Shown here piece by piece: positions 18,275 through 27,314 of a stretch of DNA of 64,000 nt. Location: NCBI GenBank assembly GCA_028282705.1, contig JANQHI010000006.1, forward strand, positions 1-64,000, given 5' to 3'. How positions within the stretch are numbered: the first letter of the stretch is position 1; the number at the start of each line of letters is the position of its first letter. Under the pieces are notes generated by a model, which did no database searches, had not been told where the DNA came from, and was given only the letters and a program-made list of their open reading frames with translations. Both the position numbers and the translations under genes were made by a program. Source of the DNA: Prolixibacteraceae bacterium (GTDB taxonomy: Bacteria > Bacteroidota > Bacteroidia > Bacteroidales > Prolixibacteraceae).

Positions 18275-18348
18275 GGGGCTATAGCTCAGTTGGCTAGAGT
18301 GCTTGACTGGCAGTCAAGAGGTCACGGGTTCGACTCCCGTTAGCTCCA
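18275..18348 (+). tRNA. tRNA-Ala (anticodon GGC)
   Basis: A full cloverleaf is visible: acceptor GGGGCTA with TAGCTCC (one G-T pair), D arm GCTC, anticodon stem CTTGA/TCAAG with loop CTGGCAG giving anticodon GGC, and T arm with GGTTCGA. The CCA end is not encoded. The last 14 bases are duplicated 9 kb away as the att repeat of an integrated element, so the tRNA stays intact but has lost its original downstream terminator, which now lies at 27315. Confidence 0.97.
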
Positions 18349-18350
18349 CA
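18335..18350 (+). repeat. att site, left copy, within tRNA-Ala
   Basis: TCCCGTTAGCTCCACA, identical to 27299-27314. It covers the 3' half of the T arm and acceptor stem plus two bases, the usual crossover location for tRNA-targeting tyrosine integrases. Confidence 0.92.
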
Positions 18351-18705
18351 GTTTTCTTTGATTAACAGTATTTTACAGTGATATTAGCCAACATTTAGCC
18401 AACCATTTATCAAAAAGCTTCTTTAATCATTTGAATTTTTAGCGGCCTGGGGATCATATAGGACTGGTGTATGAGGTATCAAAAAAATCGGATAAGTTAG
18501 TGACCGCTCCTTTCTTCTTGCGAAGGTGGTATAACTTACCCGAAATCTTAAATGTAAAGTTATAGTATTCAAATGTGATTAACAACATTTGGTTATCAAT
18601 CACTTACTAAATATCCCGGAATATAAATGAGAAAAGCTTTAAATGTAGTAACCTAAATTATATTAAGATGCTGACAAGTTTTATGGATTGTTTATAGAGA
18701 AGATT
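18351..18705. other. non-coding left end of the element with inverted repeats
   Basis: No gene is visible. Besides the arm repeat it contains a layered hairpin at 18493-18538 (TAAGTTA/TAACTTA, then ACC/GGT, then CCTT/AAGG around a 10-base loop) and a 7-bp inverted repeat CAAATGT/ACATTTG at 18570-18591, partly nested in GTGATT/AATCAC. These may be recombination-protein sites or a structured RNA; the sequence alone does not decide. Confidence 0.5.
18383..18405 (+). repeat. left arm-type repeat pair of the element
   Basis: Two tandem TTAGCCAAC units 11 bp apart, 33 bp inside the left att copy. The same 23-bp arrangement, with T for the first C of each unit, lies inside the right end (27139-27161) in the same orientation. 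Repeated motifs at both ends of a tRNA-integrated element are expected for the arm-type sites bound by the integrase N-terminal domain. Confidence 0.65.
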
Positions 18706-18999
18706 TTATTTAAGTTGTTTTAGAAGGTGTTCCAAGTCCTGACGAGATTGTATCTTATATATATTCCCATTATATTCTATAAAGCCATTTAACTCGAATG
18801 TAGATTCATTTGATTTAGCAAATAATTCCCAAACTTCTACGCCTAATGCTTCTGAAATGTTTTTAAGCGTAGATAAGGTTGGATTACCTTTTGGAGCCAG
18901 AACCCTCGTGAGGGATTCTCTGGCTATTCCCATTTTTTCAGCAAGGTCCTTTAATTTTATATTCTGTTTTTTACATATTTCTTTAACAATTAGAGTCAT
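18706..18999 (-). CDS. XRE-family repressor-like regulator
   Basis: 97 residues. The helix-turn-helix spans about 5-65 (KQNIKLKDLAEKMGIARESLTRVL, NPTLSTLKNISEALGVEVWELF). The C-terminal FIEYNGNIYKIQSRQDLEHLLKQL is a tail often attached to this type of regulator in Bacteroidota. It is transcribed away from the plus-strand small-gene operon that begins 150 bp further on, the arrangement of a repressor controlling a divergent promoter, and is the best candidate for the element's master regulator. Confidence 0.8.
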   Translation of the reverse strand: MTLIVKEICKKQNIKLKDLAEKMGIARESLTRVLAPKGNPTLSTLKNISEALGVEVWELFAKSNESTFELNGFIEYNGNIYKIQSRQDLEHLLKQLK

Positions 19000-19091
19000 G
19001 ACGTAATATTGTAAGTTATCCTATAAAGATAATAAATTAACAATAAAATCAATTAAATGTAACTCTTAGTATCACTTTCCGGTTAAAAATT

Positions 19092-19122
19092 TTTGAATTT
19101 ATTGATTTATAATATATCTTTG
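19092..19122 (+). promoter_or_regulatory. promoter of the element's plus-strand operon
   Basis: TTTG at 19092-19095, 19 bases, then TATCTTTG at 19115-19122, a full consensus match; the first ATG is 28 bases downstream. It lies in the 151-bp region shared with the divergent XRE gene and is therefore a likely target of that regulator. Confidence 0.65.
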
Positions 19123-19150
19123 AGTAACATATAATATCACATCGAATAAA

Positions 19151-19315
19151 ATGGATTATAGACAAATTGAAATAGCAAAACAAAATTACATCAGAATAAA
19201 TGGCATTAAATGGTATTTAGAGAAATATCTTGAATACCTAAAAGCAAGTACGTTTTTAACACAAAAAGAGATTTTTGAGAAATACTATTCTGTTAGAAAC
19301 GAATTATATAAATAA
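19151..19315 (+). CDS. small protein, 54 residues, function unknown
   Basis: Too short for the supplied track. Starts MDYRQIEIAKQNYIRINGIK and ends VRNELYK; rich in Tyr, Lys, Glu and Ile and predicted helical. It is the first gene after a consensus promoter and is followed 8 bp later by another small gene, which supports it being real. No family recognised. Confidence 0.6.
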   Translation: MDYRQIEIAKQNYIRINGIKWYLEKYLEYLKASTFLTQKEIFEKYYSVRNELYK

Positions 19316-19323
19316 TATTCACA

Positions 19324-19542
19324 ATGGATTTTGAACTATTTAAATTCAGAACTACAACATTGGCAAATGAGTCAAAGCAAATAAAAAGAAATTTTGACTT
19401 AGGCTTAATACCAGGTGAGGAAGCACTGGAGAAATTAGATGTAATTGAAGGTAAACTCTTAGTCCTCATTAATGATATTGATAACTGTAATGGTAAGTCA
19501 AAACAAGTGTTTGGCAGAACCTTATCTTTTAGCTCCAATTAG
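19324..19542 (+). CDS. small protein, 72 residues, function unknown
   Basis: Starts MDFELFKFRTTTLANESKQI, helical and charged, with LGLIPGEEALEKLDVIEGKLL in the middle. It is in the plus-strand operon under the 19092 promoter, with short spacers on both sides. No motif recognised; small early regulatory or anti-repressor proteins are common at such positions but that is only an inference. Confidence 0.6.
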   Translation: MDFELFKFRTTTLANESKQIKRNFDLGLIPGEEALEKLDVIEGKLLVLINDIDNCNGKSKQVFGRTLSFSSN

Positions 19543-19558
19543 ATTTAACTAGAATATT

Positions 19559-20029
19559 ATGGAAACACAAGAAATTACTTACACAAATCTCCAAGGAGGA
19601 GAGACTAAATTATCAATTTGTGGGAATTCGATAAAAATTGGAATTTCAACGTTGGACTTAGCTTACCTGGATGATCTATTTGACATAGATACCCCTGAAG
19701 CTTTTGCTAATGCAATCGAGGGATTAGTTTTTGGGTGTTCTCAAATAATATCAGAGGCAACACTGGAAGGTATCAATATTTCTGGTATGGTACCAGCGTC
19801 CATGGATTTTCATATTGCAAAACACATGGTCAAAGCGTTAAGAAAAATTGAGTTCAAAGAGCCAAAGTATGGACCTGAAAGCTGCACAATGGATGAACAA
19901 ATTAAAAGCCTAACCAACCAGGTAGAATATTTAAAAGATGTAAACAAAACATATGGAGAATTCATTGACCGTCATTTACCCGGAGCCCCAAATCAAACAC
20001 ACTTAAAAGTTGTCCACCAAGCAAAGTAA
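19559..20029 (+). CDS. unknown protein, 156 residues
   Basis: Begins METQEITYTNLQGGETKLSI. The first half looks alpha/beta, the second has a helical segment with heptad spacing (MDEQIKSLTNQVEYLKDVNKTYGEFI, about 115-140) that could form a coiled coil. Third gene of the plus-strand operon in the element, 16 bp after its neighbour. No family recognised. Confidence 0.65.
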   Translation: METQEITYTNLQGGETKLSICGNSIKIGISTLDLAYLDDLFDIDTPEAFANAIEGLVFGCSQIISEATLEGINISGMVPASMDFHIAKHMVKALRKIEFKEPKYGPESCTMDEQIKSLTNQVEYLKDVNKTYGEFIDRHLPGAPNQTHLKVVHQAK

Positions 20030-20075
20030 TTTTTGGTTCAAAATATTTTTATTACAAATCATAAAAGCATGAGCT

Positions 20076-20369
20076 ATGGAAAACCCATTTGAAGTTATTT
20101 TAAAAGAAATTAAGCACTTGAATAATAAAGTGGATCAATTAACTAAAAAGATTGAAACACTTCAGAATAAGGGATATTCTGACCCCTATAAGCTTTTAAG
20201 TGCTGAAGATGTCATGAATGAAATGGATTGGAGCCGAATGACTTTACATCGTAGATTATATGAAAGTGATACTAGCCTCCCAATGGTTAAAGATGGGGGT
20301 AAGTTAAAAATCACCAGGGCAAAATTTGATAGATATAAAAGAGAAATCTATGGAGATAATAAGCCTTAG
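20076..20369 (+). CDS. coiled-coil plus helix-turn-helix DNA-binding protein
   Basis: 97 residues. An N-terminal coiled-coil (LKEIKHLNNKVDQLTKKIETLQNK) precedes a MerR/excisionase-like helix-turn-helix (LLSAEDVMNEMDWSRMTLHRRLYESDTSLPMVKDGGKLKI, about 42-82, ending KFDRYKREIY). Such proteins act as excisionases or small transcription factors in Bacteroidota mobile elements, so the element may have two of them (see 23865-24164). Its end overlaps the next small ORF by 20 bases. Confidence 0.7.
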   Translation: MENPFEVILKEIKHLNNKVDQLTKKIETLQNKGYSDPYKLLSAEDVMNEMDWSRMTLHRRLYESDTSLPMVKDGGKLKITRAKFDRYKREIYGDNKP

Positions 20370-20508
20370 AATCGACCCTAAGAGGCTTTCTGGAGGTGAG
20401 CTTCAAGAAATAAGGAGGATAAAAGGGAAAATTATGAACAAGATAAAGCTATCTGCCAAGGAGGCTAGTTTTTTATCAGCTATGCAACAAAGAAGTAATA
20501 ATTTTTGA
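20350..20508 (+). CDS. small protein, 52 residues, function unknown
   Basis: From ATG at 20350, inside the end of the helix-turn-helix gene; the track starts earlier at a TTG. Lysine-rich and helical (SGGELQEIRRIKGKIMNKIKLSAKEASFL). Overlap suggests coupled translation, but at this length chance cannot be excluded. A weak hairpin (CCTGAA/TTCAGG at 20544-20558) follows and may end the plus-strand transcript. Confidence 0.4.
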   Translation: MEIISLRIDPKRLSGGELQEIRRIKGKIMNKIKLSAKEASFLSAMQQRSNNF

Positions 20509-20579
20509 TGTCAATCCAATTCTGCAACCTGTATAAATTTTTTCCTGAAGTGTTCAGGATCCCATTTTTTAGAGCTCAT

Positions 20580-21170
20580 TTATCCTATTTTTTGTTCGCA
20601 ATCCTTTGGATACATAAGCACACCATTTTGTCTTAAATATTCCTTGGTTTTTTCCTTAGTGTCCTCACTTATTTCTCCCCGACCATTATCAGGCATCATA
20701 ATAATGCCAGGACTATTTTCTTTGTCGTTGCCGCCGGCAATATCATTTAATCTTACCATAATATTTGCCCCTGTCCTAATGGCTACCAAGGCATCACGGT
20801 TGGTGATGTTTTTGTGGGGATTATTTTTAAAGCTATTTTGAATTACAGAGGTACCTATTTGGGTTAGCTGAACCCCATATTTATATACTTCAGCTAGATC
20901 ATTAGCTCTTGCTTCAATTATTTGCTCCTCCGCAGTAAAATCCTCATTGTGGGCATTTTTTGCAATAGCAAACTGGACTATCTGCTGTAACAGCATATCC
21001 CAATCACCGTCTTTGGACCAACGAGAAATTGTAGTATGTGTAATCTTTTTGGAATATTCCCTTTCGATTTCATTAGTGATATCCCTCAAGGAATACTGTC
21101 TTTTACCTTCGCTATCCCTAGATAAGTAAAGGGATTTCGCAAAATCTTTGATTGTTTGACTAGCTGCCAT
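20580..21170 (-). CDS. terminase small subunit-like DNA-binding protein
   Basis: 196 residues from the ATG at 21170 (MAASQTIKDF); the track start lies inside the upstream gene. The N-terminus has AKSLYLSRDSEGKRQYSLRDITNEI then THTTISRWSKDGDWD, that is, a helix-turn-helix ending in the tryptophan-containing turn typical of phage small terminase subunits that recognise packaging sites. A helical middle and an acidic C-terminus follow. No large terminase is present. In phage satellites a lone TerS redirects helper-phage packaging; a simple transcription regulator is the alternative. It is the last gene of the long minus-strand series. Confidence 0.6.
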   Translation of the reverse strand: MAASQTIKDFAKSLYLSRDSEGKRQYSLRDITNEIEREYSKKITHTTISRWSKDGDWDMLLQQIVQFAIAKNAHNEDFTAEEQIIEARANDLAEVYKYGVQLTQIGTSVIQNSFKNNPHKNITNRDALVAIRTGANIMVRLNDIAGGNDKENSPGIIMMPDNGRGEISEDTKEKTKEYLRQNGVLMYPKDCEQKIG

Positions 21171-21189
21171 GTTGTTGTAACATTTTAAA

Positions 21190-21450
21190 TTAAGAAGTTT
21201 CAATCTTTGGAACATTCCCTGAAATGATGTCATCAAAAGAGCAAAATTGATAATATCCCTGCTGTAATTCGTTTAGGGTGATCAAGGCTTCTTCTGAGCC
21301 ATGATATAATACTTTAAAAGTAGGCCTCTTTTTTACTGTACCACTTTGATTTGAAAACAAGTTAAATCCAAGTATCTCTCCAGGAACACCTGGCTTAAAG
21401 GAATGATCAGGGTTCACTCCAACTATATAAGCTTTCTTTAAATTTTTCAT
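21190..21450 (-). CDS. unknown protein, 86 residues
   Basis: Starts MKNLKKAYIVGVNPDHSFKPG and contains GVPGEILGFNLFSN and ITLNELQQGYYQFCSFDDIISG. The beta-rich pattern resembles small conserved proteins that sit beside phage packaging or structural genes, but no family is recognised. Seven bases separate it from the upstream gene and 19 from the terS-like gene downstream. Confidence 0.6.
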   Translation of the reverse strand: MKNLKKAYIVGVNPDHSFKPGVPGEILGFNLFSNQSGTVKKRPTFKVLYHGSEEALITLNELQQGYYQFCSFDDIISGNVPKIETS

Positions 21451-21457
21451 TATCCAT

Positions 21458-22156
21458 TTAATTTAATAGTTTAAAAACCTCAGGATTTGGGTGATATCCT
21501 TGTTCATCACAAATAAATAACTCGTCAAATAGAACATTATCTTCTATCTCCCAAAACTGCTGCATTACTTCATTTACGATGCCACAGGCTTTCAAAGCTT
21601 GCTCATAAGCTTTAACTTGCTTTTCATTTTCAAGATTAACAGTGAAATATGATTCTTTGATGATTTTCCAAGATTCGGCCGATACAAAGACTTTTCCCTT
21701 TTCAATAGAAAGATATCTGGCATCTAATGCTTCACCAGGCAAGTTGAGTAAAAAAGGGCTACTATACAAACGCTTTAGCTCATCAGTGGCTTTATTTAAT
21801 AGAGTAAAATCATCATGGTACTTGGGATTATTTATATTCTTCTGCTCTAAGTGGTGAGACTCAGTCAGGTCCATCCTTACAATTTGTCCTGAAGAAACTT
21901 TATTATCTTCCCTCAACTGACCTTTGAGTATATTCTTAACTTTTACTTCAAGTGGCGCTTTGTCAAGGGTTGCCTCATATGCTTTAATGACTTTTGATCC
22001 CCCATTTACCTGGTCAAGTACCAGTTCTTTGGATGGAACTATGCCCAAACTGGTTAGCTCATCAGCAATTTGCTGATATTTTGGAATTAAGAGTTTCCAC
22101 TCACTCTGGCATTTTTCAAATGCCTGTTGGTTGAACGATATTTGTTTTTTCATCAT
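21458..22156 (-). CDS. unknown protein, 232 residues
   Basis: Mostly helical, starting MMKKQISFNQQAFEKCQSEWKLLIPKYQQIADEL, with a possible domain LNLPGEALDARYLSIEKGKVFVSAESWKI in the middle. No motif or family recognised. Its start codon overlaps the stop of a 26-codon ORF (ATGATG/TGA), consistent with translational coupling along the element's minus-strand operon. Its place between the replication module and the terS-like gene suggests a role late in the element's cycle, as an inference only. Confidence 0.65.
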   Translation of the reverse strand: MMKKQISFNQQAFEKCQSEWKLLIPKYQQIADELTSLGIVPSKELVLDQVNGGSKVIKAYEATLDKAPLEVKVKNILKGQLREDNKVSSGQIVRMDLTESHHLEQKNINNPKYHDDFTLLNKATDELKRLYSSPFLLNLPGEALDARYLSIEKGKVFVSAESWKIIKESYFTVNLENEKQVKAYEQALKACGIVNEVMQQFWEIEDNVLFDELFICDEQGYHPNPEVFKLLN

Positions 22157-22233
22157 GATACAGTTTTAGATTCAGCCCATTTTTCAAGGTCAGATTGGAA
22201 TTCTTCCTGTAACTTTTCATCCTCTGAAGCCAT
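22153..22233 (-). CDS. possible 26-residue peptide
   Basis: MASEDEKLQEEFQSDLEKWA and six more residues. It starts 17 bases before the end of the preceding small ORF and stops within the start codon of the following gene. The acidic, amphipathic composition and double overlap make translation plausible; its length makes it uncertain. Confidence 0.35.
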   Translation of the reverse strand: MASEDEKLQEEFQSDLEKWAESKTVS

Positions 22234-22384
22234 CCTTTATTTTTAAATAATCTTCTTCTAAATCATTTACTACTGTATTGATATCGGTATCACTATCTAC
22301 TGTTATACCTTTTAGAAGAATCAAGGGAATGTTTTTTTTCCTTAGTTCATCTGAGATTTGTGTCAATTTTAAATTCGTGCTCAT
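22217..22384 (-). CDS. small protein, 55 residues, function unknown
   Basis: Not in the track. Starts MSTNLKLTQISDELRKKNIP and ends YLKIKDGFRG; acidic and helical after an initial short beta-like part (LILLKGITVD). It lies between two other small genes of the same strand with short spacing. No family recognised. Confidence 0.5.
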   Translation of the reverse strand: MSTNLKLTQISDELRKKNIPLILLKGITVDSDTDINTVVNDLEEDYLKIKDGFRG

Positions 22385-22412
22385 ATCTGTCTAAATTTTT
22401 AGTGGTAATTAT

Positions 22413-22583
22413 TTAATTACAATTCGTTTCCAATAGGTTAATTGTGTCTATCTTTTCATCAATCAAATCACAGATTTTCCGTAATCTAGTTGTATCAAAA
22501 CTTCCTGTTACAATTGTTTTTGATTCTTCAATCAAAGTTTCAATTTCAATGTTCAATTCATATATTTTATCTTGCGTTTCCAT
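22413..22583 (-). CDS. small helical protein, 56 residues
   Basis: From ATG at 22583 (METQDKIYELNIEIETLIEE); the longer track start is replaced because the coding pattern begins here and the upstream gene ends at 22597. Heptad-like Ile/Leu spacing suggests a short coiled coil. Thirteen bases after the helicase loader gene. Unknown function; small proteins after a loader may modulate replication. Confidence 0.5.
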   Translation of the reverse strand: METQDKIYELNIEIETLIEESKTIVTGSFDTTRLRKICDLIDEKIDTINLLETNCN

Positions 22584-22596
22584 TGTACCAAGTGCA

Positions 22597-23208
22597 TTAT
22601 TTCCGCATGCTTTCACCCGAAAACTTTATTACTTTACACAGTCGCCTTATTCTGTCCAATGTTCGGACCCCATACCGTTCAAGTACCTGAGAACTATCAA
22701 GGTTTGTTGATACAAAGAGTATTTTTGATTGCGTTTCGGCTAAGTTGAATAGCCTATTAATAGGCTCAAATTTAGATCCGTAGTCGTTGTGGACCGGCTC
22801 ACATCCCATTTCATCAACTGCAATAAACTTCTTGGTTTTTAAGTGTGGAAGTTTAGCTCCTAGTTCTTCAGCAAGCACTGTTTTTACTACCTTTTTTTTG
22901 AAATGGTAGAAGATCAAGGGTATGACATGAAATATGATATCCGTTTTTCCTCTACCTACATCACCAGTTAGAAAAAGCCCCTTGCCTTTTGTGTTTATCA
23001 TCCATTCTACAACTTGTTCATACTCAGGTATCCAAATAAATTCCTCAATAGTTTGATCAACGGAAAGAATTGCATTTTCAAGTATTCTTTTGCATAATCC
23101 AGCATTTCCAAAGCTAAAGGATGGAAATTGCCTTGTATTAAACTCAAAATTGTCTTTTAGTACATTTACAGACTGGCGAAGTGCTATATTTCCTTCAAAA
23201 TCCTGCAT
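22597..23208 (-). CDS. DnaC/IstB-like ATPase, probable helicase loader
   Basis: 203 residues of AAA+ type, with Walker A GDVGRGKT near residue 79, Walker B KKFIAVDEMGCEP near 127, sensor-like LFVSTNLDSSQ near 165 and an arginine-rich end (RTLDRIRRLCKVIKFSGES). It overlaps the initiator gene upstream by 14 bases. Initiator plus loader is the layout of lambda O-P and of many phage replication modules: the loader brings the host DnaB helicase to the origin. IstB of IS21 is related but no IS21 transposase is present. Start taken at ATG 23208 rather than TTG 23214. Confidence 0.82.
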   Translation of the reverse strand: MQDFEGNIALRQSVNVLKDNFEFNTRQFPSFSFGNAGLCKRILENAILSVDQTIEEFIWIPEYEQVVEWMINTKGKGLFLTGDVGRGKTDIIFHVIPLIFYHFKKKVVKTVLAEELGAKLPHLKTKKFIAVDEMGCEPVHNDYGSKFEPINRLFNLAETQSKILFVSTNLDSSQVLERYGVRTLDRIRRLCKVIKFSGESMRK

Positions 23209-23848
23209 TCTCAACTATTTTTTGCTTTTCAGCTTCATCCTTTGGTTTCATAATTTGACCAGTATCATGTGGCTTTTTCTGATTTGAAAATTTAAGTTCA
23301 TTGTCCTTCCATCGCCGTAACCTTTTTTTAGTGTCCCAGGTTCTTTCAAGCTGCCACCTGATTTTAGTATTAGATTTGTTTGGCTCAGACCAGTAATCAT
23401 AAAACTTCTGAACCATTTCATTTCCGTATTCTTCAATGAAAGGGGTTAGTGTTTCATAAAATGCTTTTTGAATTTCTTCAATATCTACTTTAGTATAGTT
23501 CTTTTTTATACCCTTTTTTATTACTTCCTTTTTTTCAGGGATACCTATCCCTATTGGTATACATACCCTACTCAATATTTCTGAGGATACCCTATCCCTT
23601 TTTATATGGATACCTATCCTCTTTTTTCGGGATAGGTTGTTTAGGATTACTGAAGCTCTTTTTTTTGTTATGCCGAAAAATTTCGCAAACCAAGAATTTG
23701 AAGCAATACACTCTTGACCATTCGCTGAAAATGAGATAATTATGCTTAAAAAAGTCTTTTCTGTAAGATTTAAATCTTTCATTTCCCAAACCTCTCTTGG
23801 TATCCAGATACCTTTAAATTCGGCAATATCATCCTTCTCTATTGCCAT
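23195..23848 (-). CDS. winged-helix replication initiator-like protein
   Basis: 217 residues from ATG 23848. The N-terminal winged helix covers about 12-70 (GIWIPREVWEMKDLNLTEKTFLSIIISF, ASNSWFAKFFGITKKRASVILNNLSRKKRI). A middle linker (about 71-126) is encoded by the iteron and AT-rich tract. The C-terminus (130-200) contains FYETLTPFIEEYGNEMVQKFYDYW and RWQLERTWDTKKRLRRW, as in phage and plasmid replication proteins. It precedes and overlaps the loader gene. Initiation of the element's own replication is inferred from domain order, the internal repeats and the neighbour. Confidence 0.75.
   Translation of the reverse strand: MAIEKDDIAEFKGIWIPREVWEMKDLNLTEKTFLSIIISFSANGQECIASNSWFAKFFGITKKRASVILNNLSRKKRIGIHIKRDRVSSEILSRVCIPIGIGIPEKKEVIKKGIKKNYTKVDIEEIQKAFYETLTPFIEEYGNEMVQKFYDYWSEPNKSNTKIRWQLERTWDTKKRLRRWKDNELKFSNQKKPHDTGQIMKPKDEAEKQKIVENAGF
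23460..23637. other. candidate replication origin inside the initiator gene
   Basis: Three inverted repeats GGATA-CC(C)-TATCC lie at 23539-23550, 23585-23597 and 23608-23619, with a related GGTA-TACA-TACC at 23556-23567 and a half-site GGGATAGG at 23629-23636; centres are roughly 17-30 bp apart. On the downstream side (coding sense) they adjoin about 75 bp of purine-strand-biased AT-rich DNA (23460-23537). Iterons plus AT-rich tract in the middle of the initiator gene is the architecture of the lambda origin in gene O. Confidence 0.65.
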
Positions 23849-23864
23849 ATTGAAGATTCCATTA

Positions 23865-24164
23865 TTAAACACTCAAAGGTTGGATTGCAGCCTCAACCTC
23901 ACTACGTTTATAATAAACCCTATTGCCCAAACCGTATGCTTTGAGTTTGCCTCTCTTGGTCCAGTTGTGGACAGTTGAAAGGTCAACATTGAGCAGGTTT
24001 TTTACTTCATTCCTGGTCATAAAGGTTTCAGGCTCTTTGGGCTGAAATTCCTGTTTAAGCTGCTTTATTTCTGCCTTCACGCCTGAAAGAATAGCATCTT
24101 GCAATTGTTCAGGGGTAATCTGGATGAATTGCACAGCCCTTTGAGGTAATTTATCATTTTGCAT
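23865..24164 (-). CDS. excisionase-like helix-turn-helix protein
   Basis: 99 residues. The C-terminal half is a MerR-type HTH_17/excisionase domain: FMTRNEVKNLLNVDLSTVHNWTKRGKLKAYGLGNRVYYKRSEVEAAI (about 50-96). The N-terminal half is a helical region (LPQRAVQFIQITPEQLQDAILSGVKAEIKQLKQEF). It sits just upstream of the initiator gene, and a palindrome covers its start region, suggesting autoregulation. In satellites the equivalent protein (Xis/AlpA) directs excision and activates the replication operon. Confidence 0.78.
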   Translation of the reverse strand: MQNDKLPQRAVQFIQITPEQLQDAILSGVKAEIKQLKQEFQPKEPETFMTRNEVKNLLNVDLSTVHNWTKRGKLKAYGLGNRVYYKRSEVEAAIQPLSV

Positions 24165-24190
24165 TTTAAATACATTTAATATTTAAATGC
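24161..24190. promoter_or_regulatory. palindrome overlapping the start of the excisionase-like gene
   Basis: GCATTTTAAAT and ATTTAAATGC are near-perfect inverted copies, with a second palindrome CATTTAA-TAT-TTAAATG nested within. The location over the start codon and ribosome site suggests an operator, with the excisionase-like protein or the XRE regulator as possible ligand. Confidence 0.4.
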
Positions 24191-24251
24191 AAGATCGGGA
24201 GGTATGCGTCTTAAAATTCAGACAGAATAGGAGTTTTGTTACGACAAACTA

Positions 24252-25061
24252 TTAATTGGTGGAATTAGGGTTAAGTACATCTTTTTTTATTCTTTGGTAC
24301 CTATTAAGCCTTTCATTTGTTTTACACACATCATATGTTTTTATTTCAGTGGGGGATTCAAGATCAGAAAAATTATTTTCAAACCAGGTTTTATAATTTC
24401 CTGGTTTAATATGGTCATATATAAAACCATCTTGTTCAAAAGACATTACACGATATATGAAACTATATTCTCGAATATATTTTTTATCATCTGACTCTTT
24501 AATAAAATTTATGAAAATCCTAAAATAATCTTCCTTCTTGAAAATTTCAGGGTGCCAGTTTTTATCTGTTTCTCTTTCTTTATTGTTTGACAATGCAAAC
24601 TCAACTTGAACACTACTTATTACTTCATTATTTTTATGAAAATGAAAATCAAGGGTTGAATCAGTGTAAGAATTGATATTTCGCATTACAATATTAGTAA
24701 AATCAAGATTTTTATAAATGGAACAATTTTCTGAGACTTCCATTATTAAACCATTAAGGGTAAGTTTGCAATTATTGACATAATTGAAATCAGTTTCGTT
24801 ATCAAATGCAGATATACCTTTAGAGACAAGGCCTAAATTATAATCTTTTCCATCATTGAATAATCGATTAAATACTGTATTCAGAAAACCACTTCTGCTG
24901 GTATTATTATGCAGTTGATACAATTCATCAATAACACTATTTGTAGCTTCAGATTCCAGTCTGCACCAATCAATTGAGTCTCCATTCCGAACTTTTTTAT
25001 CATCATACATTCCATTTAAAATATTGATGAGATCAAGATATGTATAATTAGATTTTCCCAT
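24252..25061 (-). CDS. unknown cargo protein, 269 residues
   Basis: No family recognised. It is Asn- and Asp-rich and mixed alpha/beta, with segments TLDFHFHKNNEVISSVQVEF near the middle and FRIFINFIKESDDKKYIREYSFIYRVMSFEQDGFIYDHI towards the end. There is no signal peptide or membrane helix, so it is cytoplasmic. It sits between the toxin-antitoxin pair and the excision/replication genes. In satellites accessory genes near int often give the host protection against phages, so a defence role deserves a test; nothing in the sequence proves it. Confidence 0.65.
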   Translation of the reverse strand: MGKSNYTYLDLINILNGMYDDKKVRNGDSIDWCRLESEATNSVIDELYQLHNNTSRSGFLNTVFNRLFNDGKDYNLGLVSKGISAFDNETDFNYVNNCKLTLNGLIMEVSENCSIYKNLDFTNIVMRNINSYTDSTLDFHFHKNNEVISSVQVEFALSNNKERETDKNWHPEIFKKEDYFRIFINFIKESDDKKYIREYSFIYRVMSFEQDGFIYDHIKPGNYKTWFENNFSDLESPTEIKTYDVCKTNERLNRYQRIKKDVLNPNSTN

Positions 25062-25110
25062 TAAATATCTTCAGTACTAGAATTCATATTGGGTTGTTAG
25101 TGAATTGATT

Positions 25111-25413
25111 TTAAATTGGTTGTAGGTCAAAATTAACTTTTGCTCCCAATGCTGCCGCAATTTTATTAATAGTTGCAAGGGTTAGGTTGAATTTACCGTT
25201 TTCAATCTTTGATATCTGACCCTTTTCCATGCCCAATTTTTCAGCCAGTTGGCTTTGAGTTAAATGCTTCTTTTTCCGTAATTCCTTAAACTTGAAAGCA
25301 AGTATATCAGCCTTTAATTCATTTTCAAATTTGATTCTTGCTTCTGTCCCTTTCTCCCCAATAAATCGGTCAAGTACCTCATTATGCGATATTGTTTTCA
25401 TTCCCTTTTTCAT
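25111..25413 (-). CDS. XRE antitoxin of a HigBA-type system
   Basis: 100 residues: a helical N-terminus (NEVLDRFIGEKGTEARIKFENELKADILAFKFKEL) and an XRE helix-turn-helix (RKKKHLTQSQLAEKLGMEKGQISKIENGKFNLTLATINKIAAALG). It overlaps the toxin gene by four bases (ATGA) and comes second, the order characteristic of HigBA. It should neutralise the toxin and repress the pair. Presence in the element would favour its retention. Confidence 0.85.
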   Translation of the reverse strand: MKKGMKTISHNEVLDRFIGEKGTEARIKFENELKADILAFKFKELRKKKHLTQSQLAEKLGMEKGQISKIENGKFNLTLATINKIAAALGAKVNFDLQPI

Positions 25414-25736
25414 AGCCCTAAATATTTTTTTCTTAACTGCTCTGCTTTATCAATCTCTCTTTTAGGTGTCTTCTGTGTTTTCTTTGTAATTCCATGGGTG
25501 CAAATTACCAAAGTGTTTTGCTGCTTATCCCAAAAGGCAAATAAACGATACTCATTGCTATTATATTCTGCCCGAAACTCCCAAATGTTACTGCTCTTTA
25601 ATTTCTTGAATATCCGTGGGTCATTTATTTCTTGTGATTTGGAAATATTGAAGAATAATTTTTCAGCTGCTTTTAGTTCAATACTTTCCAAGAACTCAAT
25701 TGCGCTAGGCAAATATTTTACATTAAATCGTTTCAC
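25410..25736 (-). CDS. RelE/HigB-like toxin
   Basis: 108 residues with the RelE/ParE fold pattern: YLPSAIEFLESIELKAAEKLFFNI, then IWEFRAEYNSNEYRLFAFWDKQQNTLVICTHGITKKTQKTP and a lysine-rich last helix. Members cleave mRNA at the ribosome. The core strand EFRAEYNSNEYRLFAFW retains basic and aromatic residues used in catalysis by relatives. It is followed with overlap by its antitoxin. Confidence 0.85.
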   Translation of the reverse strand: MKRFNVKYLPSAIEFLESIELKAAEKLFFNISKSQEINDPRIFKKLKSSNIWEFRAEYNSNEYRLFAFWDKQQNTLVICTHGITKKTQKTPKREIDKAEQLRKKYLGL

Positions 25737-25795
25737 TATACAAAGATATTAAAAGTTGAATTATATTGCAACATGGAAGTTAAATAATTATCCTG

Positions 25796-27094
25796 CTAGT
25801 TTGCCTTTTTAATAACTGCCATGGGGGTTTTATCATTGGCTCTTAGTTGATGCTTACTCCAGTATTCAGCTATTTGCAATGCAAAATCATTTGTGGTTTT
25901 ACCAATGTATTCTAAAAATTGTTGTTCTGTACTGTGAGCTGTAATACTCATCAAAAGTGCTGTTGGTATCTCTCCATAAAAATTACTGGCAAAGGATCTG
26001 CGGCACACATGGGAGGTAATTAATTCATACTTTGGATATATCCCTTGTATTTTCCGCCCAATTTCCTTATCCATTTTGGCTCCATCTGTCGGTTCATTTA
26101 TTTCAGCAATTTTACAAAGGTCCTTCAGGTGTTTATTGAATTTTTGTGCTGATAGTTGGGTTGGGAATTGCCCGTTATGTTTATCCAATATTCCCTTTAT
26201 TTTGGGGTGTATGGGAATGGCAACCCTTTTCCCTGTCTTTTTTTGGGTGAACTCAATCAATTCTATCCCGTTTCTTACTTTAATGATGTTGCATGTGAAA
26301 GCTAGCAAGTCGGAAACCCTTTGTCCAGTATAACATCCTATAATCAACCAATCTTTTGCATTCTCAAGAGCTGTCCTTTTATAAATTGTTGTCTCTATTT
26401 TGGATAGTTCATCAAAGGTCAAAAATACTTTAGAAGCTTTTTCAGTAAAACCTTTGATTTGCTTTAGCTGCTTGCTTACTTCATACCCATTTAATTGCGC
26501 ATCAAGACATATTGTTTTTAAAAATCGGATATACCTGCCTGCAGAGTTAGGGTTCAACTTATCTCTTTCAATGAGGTATTTTAAAAAATCATTCCTGAAT
26601 TTTAAATCTACATTTTTAACATAGAAGTGTTTTTTCTTATGTTTCTGATAAGCTCCAATTTTGTTTTTAAGTGTGGTATATTTTTGAATAGTTCCAATTG
26701 CAACACCTCTTTTACCGTTTGGGAATTCTTTATATGGTAAATTGTCAATATAAAGCTGAACGTAGTTGGTAAGTAAGTCTTTATCCGTTTTGTCCTGCTT
26801 GCCAGTGATAGAATTTATTTGTTCATGCAACCAATTACCAGATATTTCAATTCCATTTGTAGTAGCTGAATTACAGCGTTTTTCTATTTCCGTTTTTAGA
26901 TTGCTTAAATCTGTTTTTAAGTTTTTCAGGTTTGTATCTTTGGGTATGGGGAGGTTTGTTTTTCTACTCCAGTTTTTAGGATCAATAATATACCCTGTTT
27001 TTCTTTTAAATACATTTTTACGGCTTATTGATAAGCGGACATAGATATTGGCCGGGTTATTTTGACTCTGTAGCAGGTAACTTATGGTGGCCAT
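25796..27094 (-). CDS. tyrosine recombinase (integrase) of the element
   Basis: 432 residues. An N-terminal arm-binding domain (1-80, NIYVRLSISRKNVFKRKTGYIIDPKNW), a SAM-like core-binding domain (about 105-215) and a catalytic domain. The catalytic residues are Arg in CYTGQRVSDLLAF, the H-x-x-R set in SHVCRRSFASNF, the later His in TAHSTEQQF and the nucleophile Tyr in FLEYIGKTT. It lies at the right end of the element facing inward, 205 bp from the att copy. The arm-type repeats overlap its promoter region, which would allow self-repression. Confidence 0.95.
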   Translation of the reverse strand: MATISYLLQSQNNPANIYVRLSISRKNVFKRKTGYIIDPKNWSRKTNLPIPKDTNLKNLKTDLSNLKTEIEKRCNSATTNGIEISGNWLHEQINSITGKQDKTDKDLLTNYVQLYIDNLPYKEFPNGKRGVAIGTIQKYTTLKNKIGAYQKHKKKHFYVKNVDLKFRNDFLKYLIERDKLNPNSAGRYIRFLKTICLDAQLNGYEVSKQLKQIKGFTEKASKVFLTFDELSKIETTIYKRTALENAKDWLIIGCYTGQRVSDLLAFTCNIIKVRNGIELIEFTQKKTGKRVAIPIHPKIKGILDKHNGQFPTQLSAQKFNKHLKDLCKIAEINEPTDGAKMDKEIGRKIQGIYPKYELITSHVCRRSFASNFYGEIPTALLMSITAHSTEQQFLEYIGKTTNDFALQIAEYWSKHQLRANDKTPMAVIKKAN

Positions 27095-27127
27095 TATTGC
27101 TATAAACTTTAGTGATTTGAACAGGTG

Positions 27128-27158
27128 TAAATATACAAATTAGTCAACATTTAGTCAA
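27128..27158 (-). promoter_or_regulatory. candidate integrase promoter overlapping arm repeats
   Basis: On the minus strand TTG inside one arm repeat, 20 bases, then TATATTTA, a seven-of-eight match to the -7 consensus. Integrase bound to the arm sites would cover it. Moderate match only. Confidence 0.35.
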
Positions 27159-27161
27159 CCA
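27139..27161 (+). repeat. right arm-type repeat pair of the element
   Basis: Two tandem TTAGTCAAC units 11 bp apart, a 21-of-23 match and same orientation as 18383-18405; both differences are C-to-T at the equivalent position of each unit. It lies 138 bp inside the right att copy and upstream of the integrase gene. Confidence 0.65.
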
Positions 27162-27298
27162 AATTACAATTTATTTCAATTTGATTAAATCCTATTCAAT
27201 TATAACCTTTCCTGTATATCTTTATATATAAGAGATTATAAGGGCTATGCTTAGTTTTTTGCAATGTTTTAGGAGCCTGTGAAATTTATAGTTTCTGT

Positions 27299-27314
27299 TC
27301 CCGTTAGCTCCACA
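27299..27314 (+). repeat. att site, right copy
   Basis: Perfect copy of the tRNA-Ala 3' end (TCCCGTTAGCTCCACA). The upstream bases do not continue the tRNA, so this is the element-side junction, and chromosomal DNA resumes after it. Confidence 0.92.

Follow-up and report, generated by a model that had tools for sequence, protein, structure and literature searches.

Small terminase subunits (TerS) consist of an N-terminal HTH, a helical hairpin, and a tail (PMC9611059). The C terminus of TerS binds the large subunit (TerL) in lambda and P22 (PMC9611059, PMC9026076), and in RcGTA the TerS C terminus binds TerL via the ATPase domain of the latter (PMC6854486). Chimeras of the lambda and 21 subunits part the DNA specificity, which is N-terminal, from the TerL specificity, which is C-terminal (PMC9026076). 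SaPIs that encode a TerS bring the TerL of their helper to their own DNA (PMC6092414). A lone TerS in a satellite is of a known kind. The locus described here is laid out like the TerS-encoding PICIs (pac-type SaPIs; PMC6092414), which are small and carry an integrase, regulators, and replication genes followed by a lone TerS, with no TerL or capsid gene.

A 9-kb Element at a tRNA-Ala Gene

The window analyzed comprises 64,000 nucleotides of a contig from a Prolixibacteraceae bacterium. At about 18335-27314 it contains an element of about 9 kb that is flanked by a 16-bp direct repeat, TCCCGTTAGCTCCACA. The features are given below, together with identities to counterparts in related elements of the genomes G043 (Draconibacterium sediminis), G061, and G036 and of the viral contig L046.

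18335..18350, plus strand: left att core TCCCGTTAGCTCCACA, which includes the 3' end of tRNA-Ala (18275-18349)
18706..18999, minus strand: Xre/HTH_3 regulator (PF01381, 1.1e-10; 41% identity to the G043 counterpart)
19559..20029, plus strand: 156-aa satellite marker gene (33% identity to the G043 counterpart; in 4/140 family genomes)
20580..21170, minus strand: terS-like gene, 196 aa, with HTH, helical hairpin, and flexible tail with PDNGR
20679..20693, minus strand: PDNGR motif in the tail, residues 160-164, predicted TerL-docking peptide
20736..20933, minus strand: long helical hairpin, residues 80-145 (helices 80-114 and 124-145), predicted oligomerization core
21009..21089, minus strand: HTH region, residues 28-54 (helices 28-39 and 45-54, high local pLDDT), predicted DNA recognition
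21458..22156, minus strand: 232-aa gene conserved among satellites, upstream of terS (31% identical to its L046 counterpart)
22217..22384, minus strand: 55-aa conserved satellite gene (43% identity to a G036 satellite protein)
22597..23214, minus strand: DnaC-like helicase loader (phrog_3277, 4.5e-19)
23195..23872, minus strand: HTH_36 replication-initiator-like gene (PF13730, 1.7e-6; phrog_270, 1.4e-8; 65% identity over 117 aa to the G061 counterpart)
23865..24164, minus strand: HTH_17 excisionase/regulator-like gene (PF12728, 1.2e-12; phrog_66, 1.3e-10)
25796..27094, minus strand: tyrosine integrase (PF00589, 2.9e-7; PF13102, 1.4e-8)
27299..27314, plus strand: right att core, the same 16 bp TCCCGTTAGCTCCACA

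The integrase opens a leftward run of genes that closes with the terS-like gene, and small genes without known family are also present in the element. A preliminary description of the DNA had put the gene at the end of the element. This placement was wrong, as the element goes on for 2.2 kb past terS with convergent genes. Pfam and PHROGs profiles detected no TerL, portal, capsid, or tail genes within the element. The missing large subunit, noted in the same description, was confirmed for the element. The satellite setting proposed there is supported by the att site at a tRNA gene, the integrase, the replication genes, and the excisionase-like gene, and by the lack of virion genes.

Further observations were made along the element. 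A HigA-like (HTH_3) and Gp49/HigB-like pair at 25111-25736 adjoins the integrase and is likely a toxin-antitoxin module. Between this pair and the excisionase-like gene lies a 269-aa protein (24252-25061), possibly cargo, for which no Pfam, PHROG, or PADLOC match was obtained. A 23-bp repeat with internal TTAGYCAAC units occurs near both ends (18383-18405 and 27139-27161, 91% alike), and the two copies probably represent arm-type sites of the integrase. No pac or cos site was identified by a direct-repeat search around terS; the few short two-copy repeat pairs in its vicinity were considered as pac-like sites and taken for chance.

The Predicted Protein

The ORF is intact and comprises 196 codons on the minus strand, with the ATG at 21170 and the stop at 20580. 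It is not a chance ORF, because the related element of D. sediminis encodes a counterpart that is 54% identical and carries the C-terminal motif as well. The AlphaFold model has a mean pLDDT of 71.9, a low pTM of 0.40, and a low-confidence tail. Helices are predicted at residues 2-15, 28-39, 45-54, 57-75, 80-114, and 124-145, and the layout is the one expected for TerS: an HTH at the N terminus, then a long hairpin of helices and a flexible C-terminal part. The stretch ISRWSKDGDWD, part of the pattern on which the TerS assignment had originally been based, is present in the ORF and is preceded by the HTH and followed by helices in the model.

In a Foldseek search with the model, the two best matches were the small terminases of P74-26 and G20c (6v1i, 6ejq). 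These matches are weak and not significant (E 0.48 and 0.60, low TM-scores), and the fold search is for this reason consistent with a TerS without proving it. The result that the preliminary description had named as a refutation, with best hits confined to transposition or transcription factors, was not obtained. VIA-align of the protein with the G20c and P74-26 TerS gave a weak whole-chain similarity (Z 5.4-6.4, rmsd over 10). Matches of the hairpin to Mediator, channels, and designed proteins in VIA-align were set aside as generic long helices.

Relatives Next to Large Terminase Genes

Pfam and PHROGs profiles gave no match to the window protein. Likewise, no relatives were found by single-sequence scans of genomes and viral contigs or by tblastn against isolated phages. 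Relatives were retrieved by alignment searches with two and then four rows. Among 140 genomes of the family, the D. sediminis protein was the one relative. In wider searches, proteins with 44% and 41% identity turned up in the viral contigs L008 and L012, respectively, and one with 23% identity in a Mu-like phage of genome G190.

All three phage genes stand directly upstream of TerL. In L008 the TerL matches phrog_4758 (4.5e-39) and phrog_38 (2.1e-35), in G190 it matches Terminase_3 (1.2e-35), and in L012 it is followed by a 476-aa ORF in portal position. A more distant homologue in L014 is also located upstream of TerL. The L008 relative itself matches the TerS families phrog_6299 (1.1e-4) and phrog_2414 (5.2e-4).

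An Exchangeable TerS Slot in a Family of Satellites

The window element has the integrase, the Xre regulator, and the 156-aa marker in common with the G043, G061, and G036 elements, and the replication protein and small genes in common with some of them. L046 shares the integrase and the 232-aa gene; a scan of viral contigs with the 156-aa marker found nothing. The G043 and G036 elements have short repeats at a tRNA-Met gene. Separate genomes carry this gene set (24-65% identity), and the slot is filled by TerS or a replacement. In G043 the slot is occupied by a window-type protein, in G061 and G036 by an unrelated protein that is beyond doubt a TerS, of the Terminase_2 type (PF03592, 5.8e-36 and 6.4e-33), in L046 by a Terminase_2 type protein with 85% identity to that of G061, and in contig L059 by a phrog_51-like TerS (2e-5). 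Judged by these occupants, the position is that of a TerS gene, and its occupant can be exchanged.

The assignment of the 196-aa ORF as a phage small terminase subunit is supported by two observations: its relatives precede TerL in three phage loci (L008, L012, and G190), and Terminase_2 TerS genes fill the equivalent slot in two related elements (G061 and G036). The lone TerS-like protein suspected from the first reading of the sequence is in agreement with these results.

The sister satellites (L004/L005 of G043, L022 of G061, L025 of G036, L046, and L059) carry an HK97-gp10-like gene after TerS. It is directly followed by a gene for a tape measure protein of 1030-1160 aa (PF10145), and no other tail genes are present. 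The same two tail genes stand 2-8 kb apart in phage contigs. The window element is smaller than the related elements and does not contain the gp10-like/tape-measure module. Satellites with a tape measure protein of their own may change the tail length or tail assembly of the helper.

A C-terminal Motif Associated with phrog_979 TerL

The tail of the window protein contains the sequence MPDNGR, with PDNGR at residues 160-164. PDNGR was present in 6/6 satellites examined. It is located within the TerS tail itself in the window element, G043, and L059, and at the end of a separate small protein encoded directly after TerS in G036, L046, and G061. The separate protein was found where the satellite TerS is of the Terminase_2 type, possibly as a split or adaptor arrangement. 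It has a length of 84-101 aa (L022:9968-10222, L025:8225-8530, L046:7790-8053), and its gene overlaps the end of terS.

When viral contigs were scanned for the motif, phage TerS proteins with this ending were found, and in each case the TerS overlapped the start of TerL. The neighboring TerLs belong to phrog_979 (2.3e-98) and Terminase_6N. For the tail counts, phrog_979 loci were gathered by TerL similarity alone, loci similar to the phrog_38 TerL of L012 and L008 served as the control, and motif-seeded and query loci were left out. The pattern P[DNES][ND][GN]R was scored in the last 60 residues of the ORF ending at the TerL start. Three phages with the motif were the starting point for the phrog_979 TerL set, which therefore samples one TerL clade; within it, the pattern was present in 67/77 loci (61/70 distinct tails), compared with 0/28 phrog_38 loci. 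Several of the exceptions come close to the pattern, for example LPDNKR, IPKNGR, and LPENRR. The chance rate of the pattern is ∼2.5e-4 per 60-residue tail, and among the ORFs of the earlier loci it occurred in 12/1335, many of which are TerS proteins or copies of one. The median distance from motif to stop is 6 residues in the phages; in the window protein the motif is followed by 32 residues, a longer extension than in most.

When the tails were trimmed, the TerS cores fell into nine BLAST clusters with no detectable similarity between them, and each cluster has one or more members that carry the motif; three of the nine are single sequences. The Fisher p of 2.7e-17 overstates independence, because the sequences within a cluster are related, and the nine clusters are the fairer count. 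A DUF2280 protein in TerS position in Rhizobium phage RHph_TM3_3_3 ends with FQLPDNGRG. The motif was missing from the ORFs upstream of more distant TerLs in Methanoculleus virus L4768, Klebsiella phage KP13-16, and G005. The simplest reading of these sequence comparisons is that PDNGR acts as a docking peptide for phrog_979 TerL.

Several TerS beside phrog_38 TerL (L008, L012, L189-L193, and others) seem to have another ending in common, which is short, helix-like, and acidic at its close (e.g. EIEAAKKRIDEEY). This ending is perhaps a second docking code.

Search for a Helper Phage

TerL profile searches of the genome that contains the window found no TerL; the phrog_38 and phrog_979-type TerL profiles gave no match. 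Two weak phrog_2 matches were rejected, as they correspond to a RecD-like helicase (L015) and to PhoH (L016). The phrog_2, phrog_38, and phrog_979-type TerL profile searches likewise gave no helper prophage. Among phage contigs, L058 carries a phrog_979 TerL together with relatives of both tail genes of the sister satellites, and L052 carries a phrog_979 TerL with a relative of one of the two. The predicted helper type is a tailed phage with a phrog_979 TerL.

DISCUSSION

We consider it likely that the gene encodes the TerS of a phage satellite at tRNA-Ala, which would package its DNA via the phrog_979-type TerL of a helper. Sequence comparison provides the homology to TerS by synteny, the exchange in the slot, the att site, the lack of virion genes, and the link between the tail and one TerL family. 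From these we infer docking, DNA selection, dependence on a helper, and packaging with transfer. When a tailed helper with a phrog_979-type TerL replicates in the cell, the satellite would excise and replicate with its own genes. A ring of satellite TerS would mark the satellite DNA through the HTH core, and the C-terminal PDNGR tail would dock on the helper TerL, such that the helper motor would fill helper heads with satellite DNA. Within the satellite family the core can be exchanged, and the presumed docking tail is retained. The protein would thereby replace the helper TerS in choosing satellite DNA. Such a substitution had been suggested in the preliminary description; the C-terminal docking motif makes the proposal more specific. 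Points against this explanation are the lack of a profile family match, the pTM of 0.40, the Foldseek E of 0.48, the 32 residues that follow PDNGR, the lack of a TerL or helper prophage in the profile searches of this genome, the absence of the motif next to more distant TerLs, and the negative search for a pac or cos site.

We lean slightly toward a modular view of these proteins, with [ILM]PDNGR as a portable docking code for phrog_979 TerL on about nine unrelated cores. The satellite family would join interchangeable cores to this tail, fused or as a separate protein, and the window TerS would be a natural chimera of a phrog_38/Terminase_3-type core and a phrog_979 tail.

With a docking tail, TerL could be sequestered as well, and the protein may be a TerS-derived interference factor that blocks helper packaging by binding helper TerL with its tail or by poisoning helper TerS rings, without selecting satellite DNA. 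PICI Rpp proteins, which bind the helper TerS, join blocking with redirection (PMC6739421). We regard pure interference as unlikely, since the HTH core has been retained in full and complete TerS genes of another family have taken over the slot, which fits DNA selection better than simple sequestration. Quite improbable is a leftover of a degraded prophage with no current role. Virion genes and a resident helper are missing, and the element is smaller than its relatives and does not contain the tail-protein module; however, its recognizable genes are uninterrupted ORFs, the att repeats on both sides are intact, and separate genomes keep the same gene set (24-65% identity), including TerS or a replacement in the slot.

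Residues 5-56 show HTH similarity to the DNA-binding domain of the ISCth4 transposase and to repressors, as would be expected for a DNA-binding regulator or transposition-type HTH protein outside packaging. This possibility is already disfavored and appears very improbable to us in view of the relatives directly upstream of TerL in three loci, the Terminase_2 slot swap, and the TerS-type tail. The tail motif is five residues long and, on unrelated TerS cores, follows a single TerL family; it offers a direct, mutable hypothesis for the TerS-TerL contact. With the motif, sequence data would be enough to predict which type of helper an uncultured satellite uses, and TerS genes that are missed by profile libraries are easier to spot.

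Comparison with Known Systems

PDNGR is not mentioned among the best matches of a search of the open-access literature, and no Bacteroidota satellite family of such make-up is described in the open-access literature searched. The Charybdis elements (PMC12324425) were considered and rejected, as their putative hosts are archaeal and no hallmark genes are present. The TerS-encoding PICIs are the counterpart in gene content; unlike them, the window element has a Bacteroidota host, its TerS gives no match to a known TerS profile, and related elements of its family also carry a tape measure protein.

The HTH and helical core is homologous to that of TerS from phages with a phrog_38 or Terminase_3 TerL (41-44% for L008 and L012, 23% for G190), but those proteins have other tails without PDNGR, and the window gene has no TerL downstream. 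Conversely, the C-terminal F-x-[IL]-P-D-N-G-R is shared with Terminase_2 (PF03592) and other TerS beside phrog_979 TerL (L058, L100, L052, and RHph_TM3_3_3), whereas the core sequences of the latter are unrelated to the window core. The E. coli PICI protein Rpp (PMC6739421, PMC9026076) is likewise a satellite protein that redirects the helper terminase to satellite DNA, a role that the window protein would share. Rpp appears to have no TerL-binding part and borrows the helper TerS, whereas a docking tail appears to be part of the window protein itself.
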